Positions 1 through 4,355 are shown, counted from the first letter of the stretch. The stretch: 53,332 nt of DNA from Phycisphaerae bacterium (GCA_016342495.1 JAEIOG010000028.1:1-53332); one strand, 5' to 3'. A program made the numbers and translations. The notes: generated by a model not told the origin, from the sequence alone.

Positions 1-1236
1 CTGGCAATCTTACTTGCTGATGCCAAAGAAAGCATTGAAACTAAAACTGATCAGGTCGTCAATGAAGCAGTTATTACTGTGCCAGCTAACTATAGCGATT
101 TGCAAAAGCAGCAGACAATTGATGCAGCCAATAATGTTGGCATTAAAGCAATTCTACTGCCACATGAGCCAACCGCAGCTGCCTTAGGCAATAAACTGCA
201 TGATCGCAATAACTGTACTGCTTTAGTCTATGATTTAGGCGGCGGAACATTTGATGTTACAGTTGTACGTTCAAGAGGTAATGTCTTTACAATTATAGCT
301 ACCGGCGGTGACTCTAATATCGGTGGTAGAGATTTCAATGACCGTATCAGTGAAAAGCTATTAGATGAATTTGAAGTTAAAAATAGTTTCAGACCTCAAA
401 AAGATCAAGATCCTATCTTTTATCAGGAGATGACTCAAAGAATTGAACAGCTGAAAATCAGTCTTTCGATTCAGAATCAATCTCAGATAGTATTATCCTG
501 CCAGGGCAAACAATTGCAAATGACAATTACCCGTCAGCAGTTTGATAGCTGGGTGATGGATCTTGCGGTAAAAACTATGGCTAAGACCAATCAGGTTATC
601 AAAGATAAAAATCTTGATATATCCCAAATCGATGAAGTATATGCCGTCGGTGGCGGGGCCATGATGCCAATTATCATTGAACAACTTGAAGAGTTGACCG
701 GTAAGAAAGTCTCTCGTCGCTGTGAACCGCATGTGGCAGCTGCTTTAGGTGCGGTTTTTGCTGGACGTCTGGAATATAAACGCAAAAATGAACCTTATCC
801 CAACGGTGATGTTGTTCTGCCAGCACCAGATTATATTTTGCATGAAATACTGAGCCATTCTGTTGGTGTGTTGGTGTTGGATGAAAATGGTAATGATATC
901 TGTAATGAAATCCTTGCCAAAGATACTCCCGTTCCATCGATTCAGACCAAACTCTTTAAGCTCAGCGAACCTGACCAGATGGCTGTTACCATCAAAATCC
1001 TGCAAGGTGAAAATGGTCAGGATGCAGATAGTTGTCAGCCATTAGGTCATTTTGAGCTTGAAGGCTTACCGGCTCGACCAGATATGATTGGCCGAATTGA
1101 AGTGACTTTCTCGCTGGATAATAACGGTATATTAACTGCCAGGGCTCGTGATAATGCCAGCGGTAAAACTGCTGAGATGGAAATTAACTATGAAATTTCT
1201 GCAAACAGTGATGCTAATCAGGTAGATGCCGCTTAA
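1..1236 (+). CDS. Hsp70/DnaK-like chaperone lacking the C-terminal lid (5' truncated by window edge)
   Basis: The reading frame is open from base 1, so the true start lies upstream and 411 residues are visible. Hsp70 nucleotide-binding signatures are present: VPANYSDLQKQ, HEPTAAAL (usually NEPTAAAL), DLGGGTFDVTV (phosphate 2), GGDSNIGGRDFN and VGGGAMMP. A beta-type substrate-binding domain follows (about the last 150 residues, with HSVGVLV and PARPDMIGRIEVTFSLDNNGILTARA-like features). The protein stops about there, with no alpha-helical lid and no EEVD-like tail, so it is shorter than housekeeping DnaK. That fits a specialised Hsp70 ATPase that holds clients or switches a partner, rather than the cell's main DnaK. 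A vWA gene follows 64 bases downstream on the same strand, and an integrase lies further on, so it looks like cargo of an integrative element. The family call is certain; the specialised role is inferred. Confidence 0.9.
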   Translation: MAILLADAKESIETKTDQVVNEAVITVPANYSDLQKQQTIDAANNVGIKAILLPHEPTAAALGNKLHDRNNCTALVYDLGGGTFDVTVVRSRGNVFTIIATGGDSNIGGRDFNDRISEKLLDEFEVKNSFRPQKDQDPIFYQEMTQRIEQLKISLSIQNQSQIVLSCQGKQLQMTITRQQFDSWVMDLAVKTMAKTNQVIKDKNLDISQIDEVYAVGGGAMMPIIIEQLEELTGKKVSRRCEPHVAAALGAVFAGRLEYKRKNEPYPNGDVVLPAPDYILHEILSHSVGVLVLDENGNDICNEILAKDTPVPSIQTKLFKLSEPDQMAVTIKILQGENGQDADSCQPLGHFELEGLPARPDMIGRIEVTFSLDNNGILTARARDNASGKTAEMEINYEISANSDANQVDAA

Positions 1237-1248
1237 TTATTAATCAAT

Positions 1249-1279
1249 AGTTCGGCAGGTATTATTTATCTGCCGAACT
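1249..1279 (+). terminator. Hairpin between Hsp70 and vWA genes
   Basis: Perfect 10-bp inverted repeat AGTTCGGCAG / CTGCCGAACT with an 11-base loop, just after the Hsp70 stop. The bases after the stem are only CTATTTC, so it is a weak terminator at best. It may instead stabilise or partly attenuate the transcript ahead of the vWA gene. Confidence 0.5.
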
Positions 1280-1300
1280 CTATTTCAAAAGGAAACAATT

Positions 1301-2005
1301 ATGAAATATTTAGAATTTGCCAACCATGTTCAGGCTAATAAAACAGAGCATACTGTCGTAGTTTCTGATTTATCACCATCGATGGCTGAAGAAGACCTAA
1401 AACCCAGCAGAAAAGTTGCTGCTATTAAAGCTTTTCATGAGCTTGTAAAAATCAAAGATAAATATCATCCTCAAGATAAGATGGCAGTTATTGGTTTTTA
1501 TGATATAGCTGAAGTGTTGCATAACCTTGTAACTATTGGCGATAACTTCAATAGTTTACAAATGGCTTTTAGTGGCAAAGATGGCGGTTATGGAACAGAT
1601 TTTAATGCCGCTCTTGAACTTGCTGAAAGCTGTTTATTTAATCAACCAGTAAAAGCCAATAATGGTTTTTTCTTACAGATGCTGACAGGGATATTTATTG
1701 AACCAGATTCACCTAAAGCAAATATCCCTGATGATGCCAATGTTATCAGGAGAATTATCATGTTAACCGATGGTGAGCATAATGGCGGTGGCAACCCCGT
1801 TGATGTTGCCAGGAATCTCAAAAGTGCTGGTGTGATAATAGATTGTATCGGTATTGGCGGCAGCCCAGAAGCGGTCGATGAAGAATTGCTTAAACAAATC
1901 GCTTCGGCTAATTCTGATGGTTCCAAACGATATTGCTTTATTGGCGATCAACAACAACTGATCCAGAAATATCAAAGCTTAGCTCATCATATCCAGATAG
2001 TTTAG
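1301..2005 (+). CDS. von Willebrand factor A (vWA) domain protein
   Basis: A 234-residue protein that is essentially one vWA domain. The metal-ion-dependent adhesion site is complete: DLSPS (D23, S25, S27), the Thr of GGYGTDF and the Asp of IIMLTDGEHNGGG. No signal peptide or membrane segment is visible, so it is probably cytoplasmic. The ATG follows AAAGGAAAC at good spacing. It sits between a lidless Hsp70 and two small membrane proteins (next start 9 bases downstream). vWA domains usually mediate Mg-dependent protein-protein contacts, and pairing with an ATPase or chaperone is common in bacterial multi-protein switches and conflict systems. The partner and function here are unknown. Confidence 0.85.
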   Translation: MKYLEFANHVQANKTEHTVVVSDLSPSMAEEDLKPSRKVAAIKAFHELVKIKDKYHPQDKMAVIGFYDIAEVLHNLVTIGDNFNSLQMAFSGKDGGYGTDFNAALELAESCLFNQPVKANNGFFLQMLTGIFIEPDSPKANIPDDANVIRRIIMLTDGEHNGGGNPVDVARNLKSAGVIIDCIGIGGSPEAVDEELLKQIASANSDGSKRYCFIGDQQQLIQKYQSLAHHIQIV

Positions 2006-2014
2006 GAGGCAAAA

Positions 2015-2305
2015 ATGATAATTATTATTAATCCTATAGCTATATTTTTTAGCCTGATTGTAACAGTAATTAATATCACTGAGTTCTTTTTGCTGGTTCA
2101 TCTGATTTTACTGTGGAAAGATATTGATTGGCTAAAGCCATTTGATATTGCCGGTGTCGCATTAGTTAAAAGAGCTATGAGTTTGGCTGGAAAATCGTTT
2201 ACTAAACTAACTAATAAAACTTTATCAATCCGGGGCAGCATTATTGCTGCCCTGGCAATCTTGCAGATAATTAAAATAATGCTTTATGCTGTCTGCAAAT
2301 TTTAA
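2015..2305 (+). CDS. Small membrane protein of unknown function
   Basis: 96 residues starting at an ATG with a strong AGGAGG five bases upstream. The N-terminal half is a long hydrophobic stretch (residues 1-33). An amphipathic basic stretch follows, then a second hydrophobic segment near the C-terminus (SIIAALAILQIIKIMLYAV). No known family is recognised. It is 9 bases downstream of the vWA gene and 13 bases upstream of another small membrane protein, so it is probably part of the same operon. It may anchor the vWA/Hsp70 pair at the membrane (inference). Confidence 0.7.
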   Translation: MIIIINPIAIFFSLIVTVINITEFFLLVHLILLWKDIDWLKPFDIAGVALVKRAMSLAGKSFTKLTNKTLSIRGSIIAALAILQIIKIMLYAVCKF

Positions 2306-2318
2306 GAAAGGATCTATC

Positions 2319-2642
2319 ATGTTAACATTAATCTATGTAGTAATATTTGTGATACTCTTCCTGATCACAAGTAATGTTCTTGCTGAAAATACTTCAGTAT
2401 TTGGAAATTATCCGAAAATATTGGCATTTTGCGTTACAGCCTTATGTATGATTGGGATGTCTGAGGCTTTTAGTGGTATGGAGAAAATTGAAGTGAATGT
2501 TGTCTTAATTCCTTATGCAGCATTGGTTATTGGTGTGGTACTTATGATTTTGCTTAAAGCAATATTATGGGTGTTCAAGAAAAAAGAGGGTTCGAGTTTT
2601 GTGGCCAAGGAAAAATCCAGTAGCAAACAATCGAGAAGATGA
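2319..2642 (+). CDS. Small membrane protein with basic C-terminal tail
   Basis: 107 residues. The ATG at 2319 was chosen over an upstream in-frame ATG at 2286 because it has a GAAAGGA ribosome site and avoids overlap with the previous gene. About three hydrophobic segments (residues 1-25, 31-50 and 60-85) precede a cytoplasmic-looking tail rich in Lys and Ser (KKKEGSSF, KSSSKQSRR). No family is recognised. The stop is one base before the start of the next gene, which argues for translational coupling. Confidence 0.65.
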   Translation: MLTLIYVVIFVILFLITSNVLAENTSVFGNYPKILAFCVTALCMIGMSEAFSGMEKIEVNVVLIPYAALVIGVVLMILLKAILWVFKKKEGSSFVAKEKSSSKQSRR

Positions 2643-2643
2643 A

Positions 2644-2901
2644 ATGGAAAATGTAACTTCACAAAGCATTGATCGCCAAACTTGGCCCACAAGACCAGTA
2701 GTTTTTCCAGAGTTAATGACTCCTGTGGAAGCAGCGATGTTTCTACGGCTTGATCAGGTAGGCCATACTCCCGAAGCTGCAATAAGAACATTGAATTATT
2801 GGCGTGACAAAGGGTATCTTAAAGCCACAAAATACGCTCGTAGGATTTGGTACTTGAAAAGCCAGCTGGAAGAATTTCTTAAAGCTAAAACAGAAATTTA
2901 A
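2644..2901 (+). CDS. Excisionase-like helix-turn-helix protein
   Basis: 85 residues from the ATG at 2644; an in-frame TTG at 2599 would lengthen it but overlaps the previous gene. The core, LMTPVEAAMFLRLD ... YWRDKGYLKATKYARRIWYL, is a winged MerR/Xis-type helix-turn-helix: helix 1 and recognition helix, then the RRIWY wing and a closing helix (SQLEEFLKA). Such proteins are typically recombination directionality factors or small repressors encoded next to a tyrosine integrase, as here. The integrase promoter region 10-50 bases downstream carries a perfect palindrome that could be its operator (inference). Confidence 0.75.
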   Translation: MENVTSQSIDRQTWPTRPVVFPELMTPVEAAMFLRLDQVGHTPEAAIRTLNYWRDKGYLKATKYARRIWYLKSQLEEFLKAKTEI

Positions 2902-2911
2902 TAGTTATCAC

Positions 2912-2955
2912 TTGCGCGATTGACTATTGTGTGATATAATAGAATAGTCAATCGC
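2912..2955 (+). promoter_or_regulatory. Integrase promoter overlapped by a perfect inverted repeat (likely operator)
   Basis: TTGCGC at 2912-2917 and TATAAT at 2935-2940 are 17 bases apart, a good sigma-70 spacing. A perfect 13-base inverted repeat overlaps them: GCGATTGACTATT (2916-2928) and AATAGTCAATCGC (2943-2955), separated by 14 bases that contain the -10. A protein bound to the dyad would block polymerase. The RNA hairpin could also act as a leader element. No run of T follows, so it is not a terminator. Confidence 0.6.
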
Positions 2956-2993
2956 CACTGGTAACTGCTTGGCTCCACAGAAAGGAGATACCA

Positions 2994-4190
2994 ATGGCAA
3001 TAATAAAAGTAGGTGTGTATCGCAAATGGCTGGAGCCTGCACCATATGATATTGATGGTACACCAATTCCAAAAAAGTTATGGCCTAAAAAAAGAAGACA
3101 TAACTGGATTGTTAGATGGGTTGGAAGCGACAATAAAAAATATGGTAAGGTTTTCAAGACCAAAAAAGAATCTGATCGATATGCAATGGGCATGCAAAAC
3201 AAGGTCTGTCAAGGTAATGCAGACAAGCCAAATAAAATTACATTGCATGTCTTTCGTATTGAACACGAAAAGATAATTCAAGGTCAAGTTTCATATGGCA
3301 CATACCAAGAACACAAAAGATCGTTAGAGCTCTTTGAAAAATTTATAGGCGGCTCGATAGAGTTGAGCAAAATTAGTCCAAGAAATGCTGAGGCATTTGT
3401 AGCTGACCGTTTAGCTTCCAAAAAAGTTTCTGTTGCTACAGTCAATAAATATGTTGTAAACCTTCGTGCTATTTTTAATAGAGCGATTGATCCAAGAGGT
3501 TATATTGCAGAGGGTAAGAACCCTTTTACTAAAATCAAACTTCGTAAAATCACTGATAAGCCTAAACGATATGTTAATATCACAGAGTATTGCAAATTAG
3601 TGGATTCAACTGATAGTTTATGGTGGAAGACATTTTTGTCTGTAGCTTATAGTAGTGGGCTTCGTCTTAATGAAATATTACATCTGACTTGTAATGATAT
3701 TGATTTTGAAAATCAGAGACTGCGTGTTTCTGCTAAGAAAGGAAAAGACAAAATCATTAATTGGGAACCTAAAAGTCGTAAAAACCGTGTGGTACCCATA
3801 TCTGATGAAGCAATAAAATTCCTAGTTAATCTTCAAGTCGATATCCCTGATGGACATCCGTATATTTTCATTTCTCCTCAAAGGCTTGAGCAAATAACTC
3901 ATCGAATAAAGAATGGAAAATGGAATGAAAGGTCGGAAGTGATTAATAATATCGGCAGAGATTTTAATGTTGTTCGTAATAAGGCAGCTGTGAAAAAGTG
4001 TACAATCCATGATTTGAGAAGATCAGCTATTACCAACTGGGCACAAAAATTACCATTTCAAGTAGTCCATAAACTTGCTGGCCATTCAAATATCAAGACC
4101 ACGATAGATTATTATCTGTCTGTGAGACCCGAAGATTTTGATTCAGCGAGTAAGGTAGTCAACGAAATGCTGGAATTGATGCGATTATGA
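2994..4190 (+). CDS. Tyrosine recombinase (phage-type integrase)
   Basis: 398 residues; the ATG follows AAAGGAGA. The catalytic set is complete: R224 (SGLRLNEIL), K in KSRKNRVVPIS, H339 and R342 (TIHDLRR), H364 (LAGHS) and Tyr373 (TTIDYY). The N-terminal 60 residues (NWIVRW.GSDNKKYGKVF) look like an arm-binding domain, and residues 95-170 form the SAM-like core-binding domain. The gene ends 91 bases from the 3' end of tRNA-Arg(CCT) and points at it. This is the classical arrangement of an element integrated in a tRNA gene. Together with the HTH gene before it, it marks the right boundary of an integrative element that extends left beyond this window. Confidence 0.95.
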   Translation: MAIIKVGVYRKWLEPAPYDIDGTPIPKKLWPKKRRHNWIVRWVGSDNKKYGKVFKTKKESDRYAMGMQNKVCQGNADKPNKITLHVFRIEHEKIIQGQVSYGTYQEHKRSLELFEKFIGGSIELSKISPRNAEAFVADRLASKKVSVATVNKYVVNLRAIFNRAIDPRGYIAEGKNPFTKIKLRKITDKPKRYVNITEYCKLVDSTDSLWWKTFLSVAYSSGLRLNEILHLTCNDIDFENQRLRVSAKKGKDKIINWEPKSRKNRVVPISDEAIKFLVNLQVDIPDGHPYIFISPQRLEQITHRIKNGKWNERSEVINNIGRDFNVVRNKAAVKKCTIHDLRRSAITNWAQKLPFQVVHKLAGHSNIKTTIDYYLSVRPEDFDSASKVVNEMLELMRL

Positions 4191-4209
4191 TTGACACTAA
4201 TTTGACACT
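4191..4209 (+). repeat. Paired TTGACACT direct repeats after the integrase stop
   Basis: TTGACACT occurs at 4191-4198 and again at 4202-4209, one helical turn (11 bases) apart, between int and the tRNA. This spacing and location suit arm-type integrase binding sites. Function is inferred only. Confidence 0.4.
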
Positions 4210-4281
4210 TTTGCGGTTTTTAGGGATCAAGAGATAAATGTGCTAATTCATAAGTTCTTATTTTTCAAGGTTTTAAGTAAA

Positions 4282-4355
4282 TACGCCCGGCGGGATTCGA
4301 ACCCACGACCTTCGGTTTAGGAAACCGATGCTCTATCCTGCTGAGCTACGAGCGC
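4282..4355 (-). tRNA. tRNA-Arg (CCT anticodon)
   Basis: The minus strand folds into a full cloverleaf. The acceptor GCGCTCG pairs with CGGGCGT (two G-U pairs) and the discriminator is A. The D arm has GCTC...GAGC. The anticodon stem TCGGT/ACCGA has loop TTCCTAA, giving CCT. The T arm contains GTTCGAATC. CCA is not encoded; the bases that follow are TTTACTT. The gene's 3' end faces the integrase, so it is the likely attachment site. Confidence 0.95.

Follow-up and report, generated by a model that had tools for sequence, protein, structure and literature searches.

The window analyzed here is a 53,332-nucleotide stretch of DNA from a Phycisphaerae bacterium (GCA_016342495.1, JAEIOG010000028.1:1-53332); it is contig C186 of an assembly of 5.4 Mb in 221 contigs, and its relatives belong to a Sedimentisphaerales-like order of Planctomycetota. 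Its first 4355 bases hold a cassette in which genes for an Hsp70 without the α-helical lid, a von Willebrand factor A (vWA) protein and two small membrane proteins, TM1 and TM2, are followed by an Xis-like gene and a tyrosine integrase gene, all on the plus strand, next to a tRNA-Arg(CCT) gene on the minus strand. The original prediction, made from the sequence alone, had read this arrangement as the end of an integrative element, and Pfam matches together with the tRNA call find every feature it listed in the place it had given. Open reading frames were called mechanically, and part of the gene labels are weak phmmer matches.

The Hsp70 gene (1–1236; PF00012, 2e-77) is cut by the window edge: its first ~93 codons lie outside, and residues 94–504 of the full protein encoded on contig C145 remain, with the nucleotide-binding domain motifs and the β substrate-binding subdomain (SBD-β) but no α lid. 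The 64-base gap that follows contains a stem-loop (1249–1279, plus strand; 13-bp stem, −20.6 kcal/mol). The vWA gene (1301–2005) encodes a single-domain protein of 234 residues (PF00092/PF13519, ~1e-11), in which the residues of the metal-ion-dependent adhesion site, DxSxS...T...D, are intact, as foreseen. TM1 (2015–2305; 96 residues) has two hydrophobic segments and TM2 (2319–2642; 107 residues) three; the earliest ATG of TM2, at 2286, is probably not its true start. The ATG of the Xis-like gene (2644–2901; 85 residues; helix-turn-helix family HTH_17 at 5e-4, under the Pfam cut-off) stands one base past the TM2 stop codon, and translational coupling of the two genes is probable. The spacer between xis and the integrase gene folds strongly as a whole (z-score −6.6) and includes a strong inverted repeat (2914–2956, plus strand) with TATAAT in its loop, a possible candidate for the integrase promoter or for a recombinase or Xis site. 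The integrase, IntA (2994–4190; 398 residues; PF00589, 8e-22), ends 92 bases from the 3' end of tRNA-Arg(CCT) (4282–4355), which faces it.

Sister copies and island boundaries

Two more copies of the block are present in the same genome, on contigs C145 and C84. C145 is 97% identical to window positions 1–2566, where homology ends inside TM2, and C84 is 94% identical to positions 1605–4335. The C145 copy supplies the missing Hsp70 codons; its full-length protein ends after SBD-β at 504 residues, compared with 635 for the DnaK of the same genome, which bears out the predicted absence of the lid. Directly upstream lies a GrpE gene that runs a few bases into the Hsp70 gene. The xis and integrase of C145 are unlike those of the window. 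The attachment core of the window is the 3' part of tRNA-Arg(CCT) (4282–4335), and a second copy of this tRNA 3' end lies on C84 (2678–2731). A 1.3-kb stretch on the far side of the core, hereafter the L-arm, is common to C84 and C145 at 96% identity; on C84 it adjoins the tRNA-Arg(CCT) 3' end, on C145 a tRNA-Ser 3' end. On contig C58, a third copy of the L-arm adjoins a 3' end resembling that of tRNA-Arg(TCT) and the remnant of a third integrase. Since the L-arm is joined to different tRNA cores, and since homology with C145 breaks off in TM2, xis, int and the attachment core have been swapped as a single unit between the sister copies, with breakpoints at window position 2566 and where the tRNA core begins on its 5' side. 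The junctions of L-arm, core and integrase fit a circular or a tandem form, and the assembly is compatible with both. Nucleotidyltransferase-like and primase-like genes, named by eye only, lie beside the third core (locus L054, C58 1556–3449).

In its own assembly, the far boundary of the window's island on the chromosome was not found. The other arm of the own-genome islands carries a gene for a β-helix protein. Contig C34 ends at the start of a HerA-like ATPase gene whose upstream genes are those seen in relatives; the own-genome islands therefore probably carry HerA too. Two relatives, G127 and G287, each assembled in one contig, have islands of ~112 kb bounded by direct repeats, so that, together with the C84 copy, the predicted integration at a tRNA 3' end is upheld. 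In G127 the cassette lies at tRNA-Asp, the 3' end of which is repeated 112.8 kb away; in G287 copies of the tRNA-Asp 3' end lie 111.9 kb away and another 32 kb beyond that, and two islands stand in tandem. The far-side copies in both genomes are fragments, not tRNA genes. The 32-kb tandem island of G287 (C1 2299406–2331370), at the same tRNA-Asp, has its own integrases; no other cassette homologues were found in it. The G127 island includes insertion sequences and sugar-catabolism genes (GH2, TRAP transporter, KDPG aldolase), and no relaxase or type IV secretion families are among the 25 most frequent of its 62 Pfam families. A phage or plasmid origin of the cassette was rejected because no relatives of its vWA protein were found among viral contigs, phages or plasmids. 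A fixed chromosomal locus, which would have spoken against an integrative element, was likewise rejected, the block being found at many different tRNA sites in relatives.

Cassette composition and recombinase exchange

For scanning genome contigs, a profile from all eight vWA proteins was too diverse, and one from a closer set was used. With a vWA profile, a strong match (1e-12) was present in a minority of the genomes of the same order, 45 of 161, and ~20 of these loci are of the cassette type. Most loci come from order mates; bins labeled Kuenenia (L140, L145) and Actinomycetota (L142) are possibly misbinned. The gene order is HerA-(nuclease-like)-GrpE-Hsp70-vWA-TM1-TM2-(Xis)-recombinase. 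Among 28 sequences compared, several of them on contigs too short to show every part, we counted Hsp70 in 25, a tyrosine recombinase in 23, vWA in 22, HerA and GrpE in 16 each, TM2 in 15, TM1 in 12 and Xis in 10; the vWA count is not independent, because the relatives were picked by vWA similarity. GrpE exceeds the Pfam cut-off in L009, L031, L036 and L144. The predicted unit of Hsp70, vWA and two membrane proteins is indeed syntenic across genomes, but it is larger than the four genes proposed: GrpE belongs to it, and in most cases genes for a HerA-like ATPase and a nuclease-like protein stand further upstream. A diverged form of the cassette (L036, L113, L116, L118, L119) has other genes downstream of vWA, and L032, otherwise a GrpE-Hsp70-vWA locus, carries a gene for a Ser/Thr kinase with an FHA domain (STK-FHA).

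The Hsp70 and integrase trees conflict, although the placement of single integrases is uncertain because some branches are long. The window and C145 have near-identical Hsp70s and distant integrases; L036 and the window, in turn, have Hsp70s only 24% identical, yet the L036 integrase is the nearest to that of the window (51%) and the Xis proteins are 80% identical. Large serine recombinases replace the tyrosine integrase in L132 (4010–5515) and L114 (4890–6395), by tRNA-Arg(CCT), while L139 combines a tyrosine integrase with an Hsp70 almost identical to that of L132, a locus of the same metagenome-assembled genome. The tRNA targets are Asp, Ser, Arg, Phe and Met and, with the remnant L034 at tRNA-Pro, amount to six kinds. 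In these comparisons, the cassette stays put next to a recombinase gene that is repeatedly swapped. For this reason, the earlier view of the genes as cargo holds in that they lie on the island, but not in the sense of variable cargo: they keep their place while the recombinase changes.

Such close association might also mean that the island uses the module as machinery for its own excision or transfer, in which Hsp70, GrpE and vWA would sense host stress and trigger xis, HerA would be a DNA translocase for packaging or transfer, and TM1 and TM2 would form a pore or exclude sibling islands. In nearly all loci the recombinase lies a few kb or less from the cassette. Xis and the last cassette gene overlap or abut in seven cases (the window, C145, L031, L131, L137, L138 and L145), as do xis and a gene for a primase-like protein of the archaeo-eukaryotic type (AEP) in L036 and L113; AEP genes are present in four variants (L032, L036, L113, L140). 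Moreover, the HerA-like ATPase weakly matches the translocases VirB4, CedD and TraD, the genome holds three copies, and the L-arm, core and integrase junctions resemble circular or tandem forms. It is the closeness of xis to the operon that keeps this reading alive. We regard it as rather unlikely, given that the cassette is tied to no single recombinase, tyrosine clades and serine recombinases both serving it; that the 25 families of the G127 island mentioned above include no relaxase or type IV secretion system; that the 32-kb tandem island of G287 shows no homologues of cassette genes other than integrases; and that the Kiritimatiellota version described below has no integrase nearby.

In the cassette Hsp70s, the motifs for phosphate and adenosine are preserved, as are the conserved Lys and Glu residues and SBD-β. 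The lid is absent in all 11 full-length cassette Hsp70s aligned, which end where it would start. A plain DnaK paralogue was rejected, as the lid is missing and the proteins form a separate clade. No DnaJ family is found among the conserved cassette families. These features count against the idea that the chaperones are ordinary cargo aiding the folding or export of large island-encoded polysaccharide-degrading proteins, for which the sugar-catabolism genes of the G127 island and the β-helix gene of the own-genome islands could be cited. That idea also leaves HerA, the nuclease-like protein, vWA and the fixed recombinase-side place unexplained; other cassette-bearing islands differ in content, and we consider it highly improbable.

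The gap between hsp70 and vWA measures 60–69 bases in most first-clade loci and also in the Pontiellaceae locus L144, from another phylum. Of 12 distinct long gaps that were folded, 11 gave a single strong hairpin each, with differing arm sequences, the hairpin of L135 being imperfect; these are single-sequence folds only, the MAFFT alignment being too poor for a formal pair count. The window hairpin has a z-score of −6.2 against dinucleotide shuffles. The hairpin is missing from L130 and the diverged form, whose gaps are short. The element may act in mRNA processing or in setting the expression ratio of the two genes. An Rfam match of the hairpin to MIR2629 (E 0.92) was dismissed as chance.

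Among the three own-genome copies, dN/dS is 0.06–0.08 for Hsp70 and vWA and 0.09 for the integrase, and reaches 0.39–0.91 for TM1 and 0.32–0.48 for TM2, values that derive from small counts and with recombination possible. The cytosolic part is held constant and the membrane part is changing.

Upstream of HerA on C34 (locus L128, 151–5064) lie genes for a Cys/His-rich protein of 145 residues, an M56/M48 membrane protease of 911 residues with an α/α-toroid domain, an anti-sigma-like zf-HC2 protein and a 196-residue protein, and this gene order is repeated in L131 and L137. A sigma factor identity of the 194–196-residue protein was set aside, as it has no Pfam match. The zf-HC2 and protease genes, which stand upstream in four of the loci, hint at regulation by envelope stress. 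With the TerY-type context of the vWA protein and the kinase/phosphatase alternative described below, they would suit a TerY-like module for responses to metals or stress, shielding the host from envelope or chemical stress and having no role against mobile DNA. In our opinion, this is quite improbable: the upstream regulators occur in a minority of loci, no TerC, TerD or tellurite genes are seen in the cassettes, and the HerA-like ATPase and its nuclease-like partner fit poorly.

Proposed function of the cassette

The best PADLOC match of the HerA-like ATPase is Mad8 (2e-8 to 3e-17 in three loci, 7e-7 in L036), followed by weaker HerA, DndH and SspH matches; the nearest solved chain is DptH, the ATPase of phosphorothioation-dependent restriction, at an E-value of only 0.07. 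An AlphaFold model of the L130 protein was not used for fold search because of its predicted local distance difference test score of 45. The nuclease-like protein has the conserved motif D...(E)IETT...R...N..KA. In Pontiellaceae B12227 (L144, Kiritimatiellota), GrpE-Hsp70-vWA-TM-TM is immediately preceded by two caspase genes (PF00656, 5e-12 and 7e-10) whose His and Cys motifs can be recognized, and neither HerA nor an integrase is found within the 20 kb examined. A further arrangement is seen in Pontiella sulfatireligans F21 (L143, 9941–11827), where genes for vWA, a small membrane protein and a 239-residue protein lie by tRNA-Lys; GrpE, Hsp70 and caspases, as in L144, are not present there. 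The own genome, finally, contains a parallel island at tRNA-Met (L037, C39 3427–12177) with HerA, PP2C, FHA, STK-FHA, vWA, a small membrane protein, xis and integrase, that is, the layout of the Hsp70 cassette with PP2C-FHA-STK replacing GrpE-Hsp70.

The resemblance of HerA to Mad8, DndH, SspH and DptH, the nuclease-like partner, the B12227 caspases and the parallel L037 island, like the fast evolution of TM1 and TM2, give indirect support to a possible role in defense, which the original prediction had raised. Our preferred reading, held tentatively and at slightly less than even chances, is that the cassette is the chaperone-driven switch module of a conflict system, acting in defense or cell suicide, at the core of tRNA-targeted integrative islands. 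Several points weigh against it. Hsp70 and vWA match no PADLOC model, the caspase association is seen in one genome only, and the Mad8 and DptH resemblance could reflect general HerA/FtsK P-loop kinship, as the translocase matches noted above illustrate. The high dN/dS of TM1 and TM2 may stem from relaxed constraint or recombination, and the tight linkage to xis and int fits a mobility role too.

Under the proposed switch, the GrpE-cycled, lidless Hsp70 would keep vWA and an effector in an inactive complex, the vWA metal site gripping a peptide of its partner. TM1 and TM2 would be the membrane-side, fast-changing sensor or specificity part, and a change in them or in the client would cause Hsp70 to let go of the complex. 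The output would be attack on DNA by HerA and its nuclease-like partner or, in cassettes whose slot is filled by caspases, proteolysis. Where xis abuts the operon, activation may also favor island excision. A bolder version, which we deem unlikely, would make this a new kind of mobile-element core, uniting the Hsp70/GrpE/vWA switch, hypervariable membrane proteins and a HerA-nuclease output, which polices rival DNA including sibling islands, controls the excision of its island and outlives recombinases that are swapped, plug-in-like, with their attachment sites.

The cassette looks like an undescribed regulated defense or excision switch; a literature search, which mostly lacked subscription papers, found no description of the gene set. 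If confirmed, it would extend the predicted vWA-regulated conflict systems by a branch that runs on chaperones, make kinase/phosphatase and Hsp70/GrpE switches interchangeable within one genomic layout, and illustrate clearly how a recombinase and its att site can be exchanged together while the core remains constant, in bacteria whose mobile elements have received little study. A further question, open to testing, would be why a chaperone switch should stand directly before an excision gene.

Relation to known systems

The TerY-P triad consists of vWA, PP2C and a Ser/Thr kinase (PMC11090510, citing Anantharaman 2012 and Gao 2020). As in the cassette, a stand-alone vWA protein with a metal site accompanies a switch pair and is tied to HerA/FtsK-like ATPases and DNA-processing genes, and L037 is a TerY-P-like island of the same layout. 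Unlike the triad, the cassette has GrpE and a lidless Hsp70 instead of phosphatase and kinase, two small membrane proteins and a fixed recombinase-side place; PP2C and Ser/Thr kinase genes are absent beside vWA in the GrpE-Hsp70-vWA loci, except for STK-FHA in L032.

In the GAP1-N2 conflict systems, HSP70 with GrpE and STK with PP2C and vWA are alternative themes (Kaur et al. 2020, PMC7159879). The likeness extends to the predicted position of the system near the membrane and to caspases among the effectors of such system types. The cassette differs in that its Hsp70 retains SBD-β, lacking the lid only. No GTPase, GAP1 or FNIII components were found in the cassettes, and the conserved families and scanned neighbors, which do not comprise every neighbor, include no TRAFAC GTPase with GAP1 or MoxR AAA+; the AAA+ protein of L036 is RuvB-like only.

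The likeness to MADS consists of the HerA-like ATPase, which best matches Mad8, a weak match of the Xis-like protein to Mad1, and a match of the L037 kinase to Mad6, as to many STK models. No methyltransferase was recognized, and only the Mad8-like ATPase and the weak Mad1-like protein represent Mad1–Mad8. Hsp70 and GrpE are not known to be parts of MADS. Analogously, the ATPase weakly resembles the DptH, DndH and SspH profiles of the Dpt/Dnd and Ssp systems, but the E-values are marginal and no phosphorothioation genes are seen. Canonical DnaK, in turn, differs from the cassette Hsp70 in having the α lid, as well as in the DnaJ partner that the conserved families lack. Islands with exchangeable cargo at tRNA genes, of which tycheposons are an example, appear similar in attaching at tRNA 3' ends by means of a tyrosine recombinase and in carrying metabolic cargo; the islands described here differ from them in having a chaperone/vWA/HerA core module and in using serine recombinases too.

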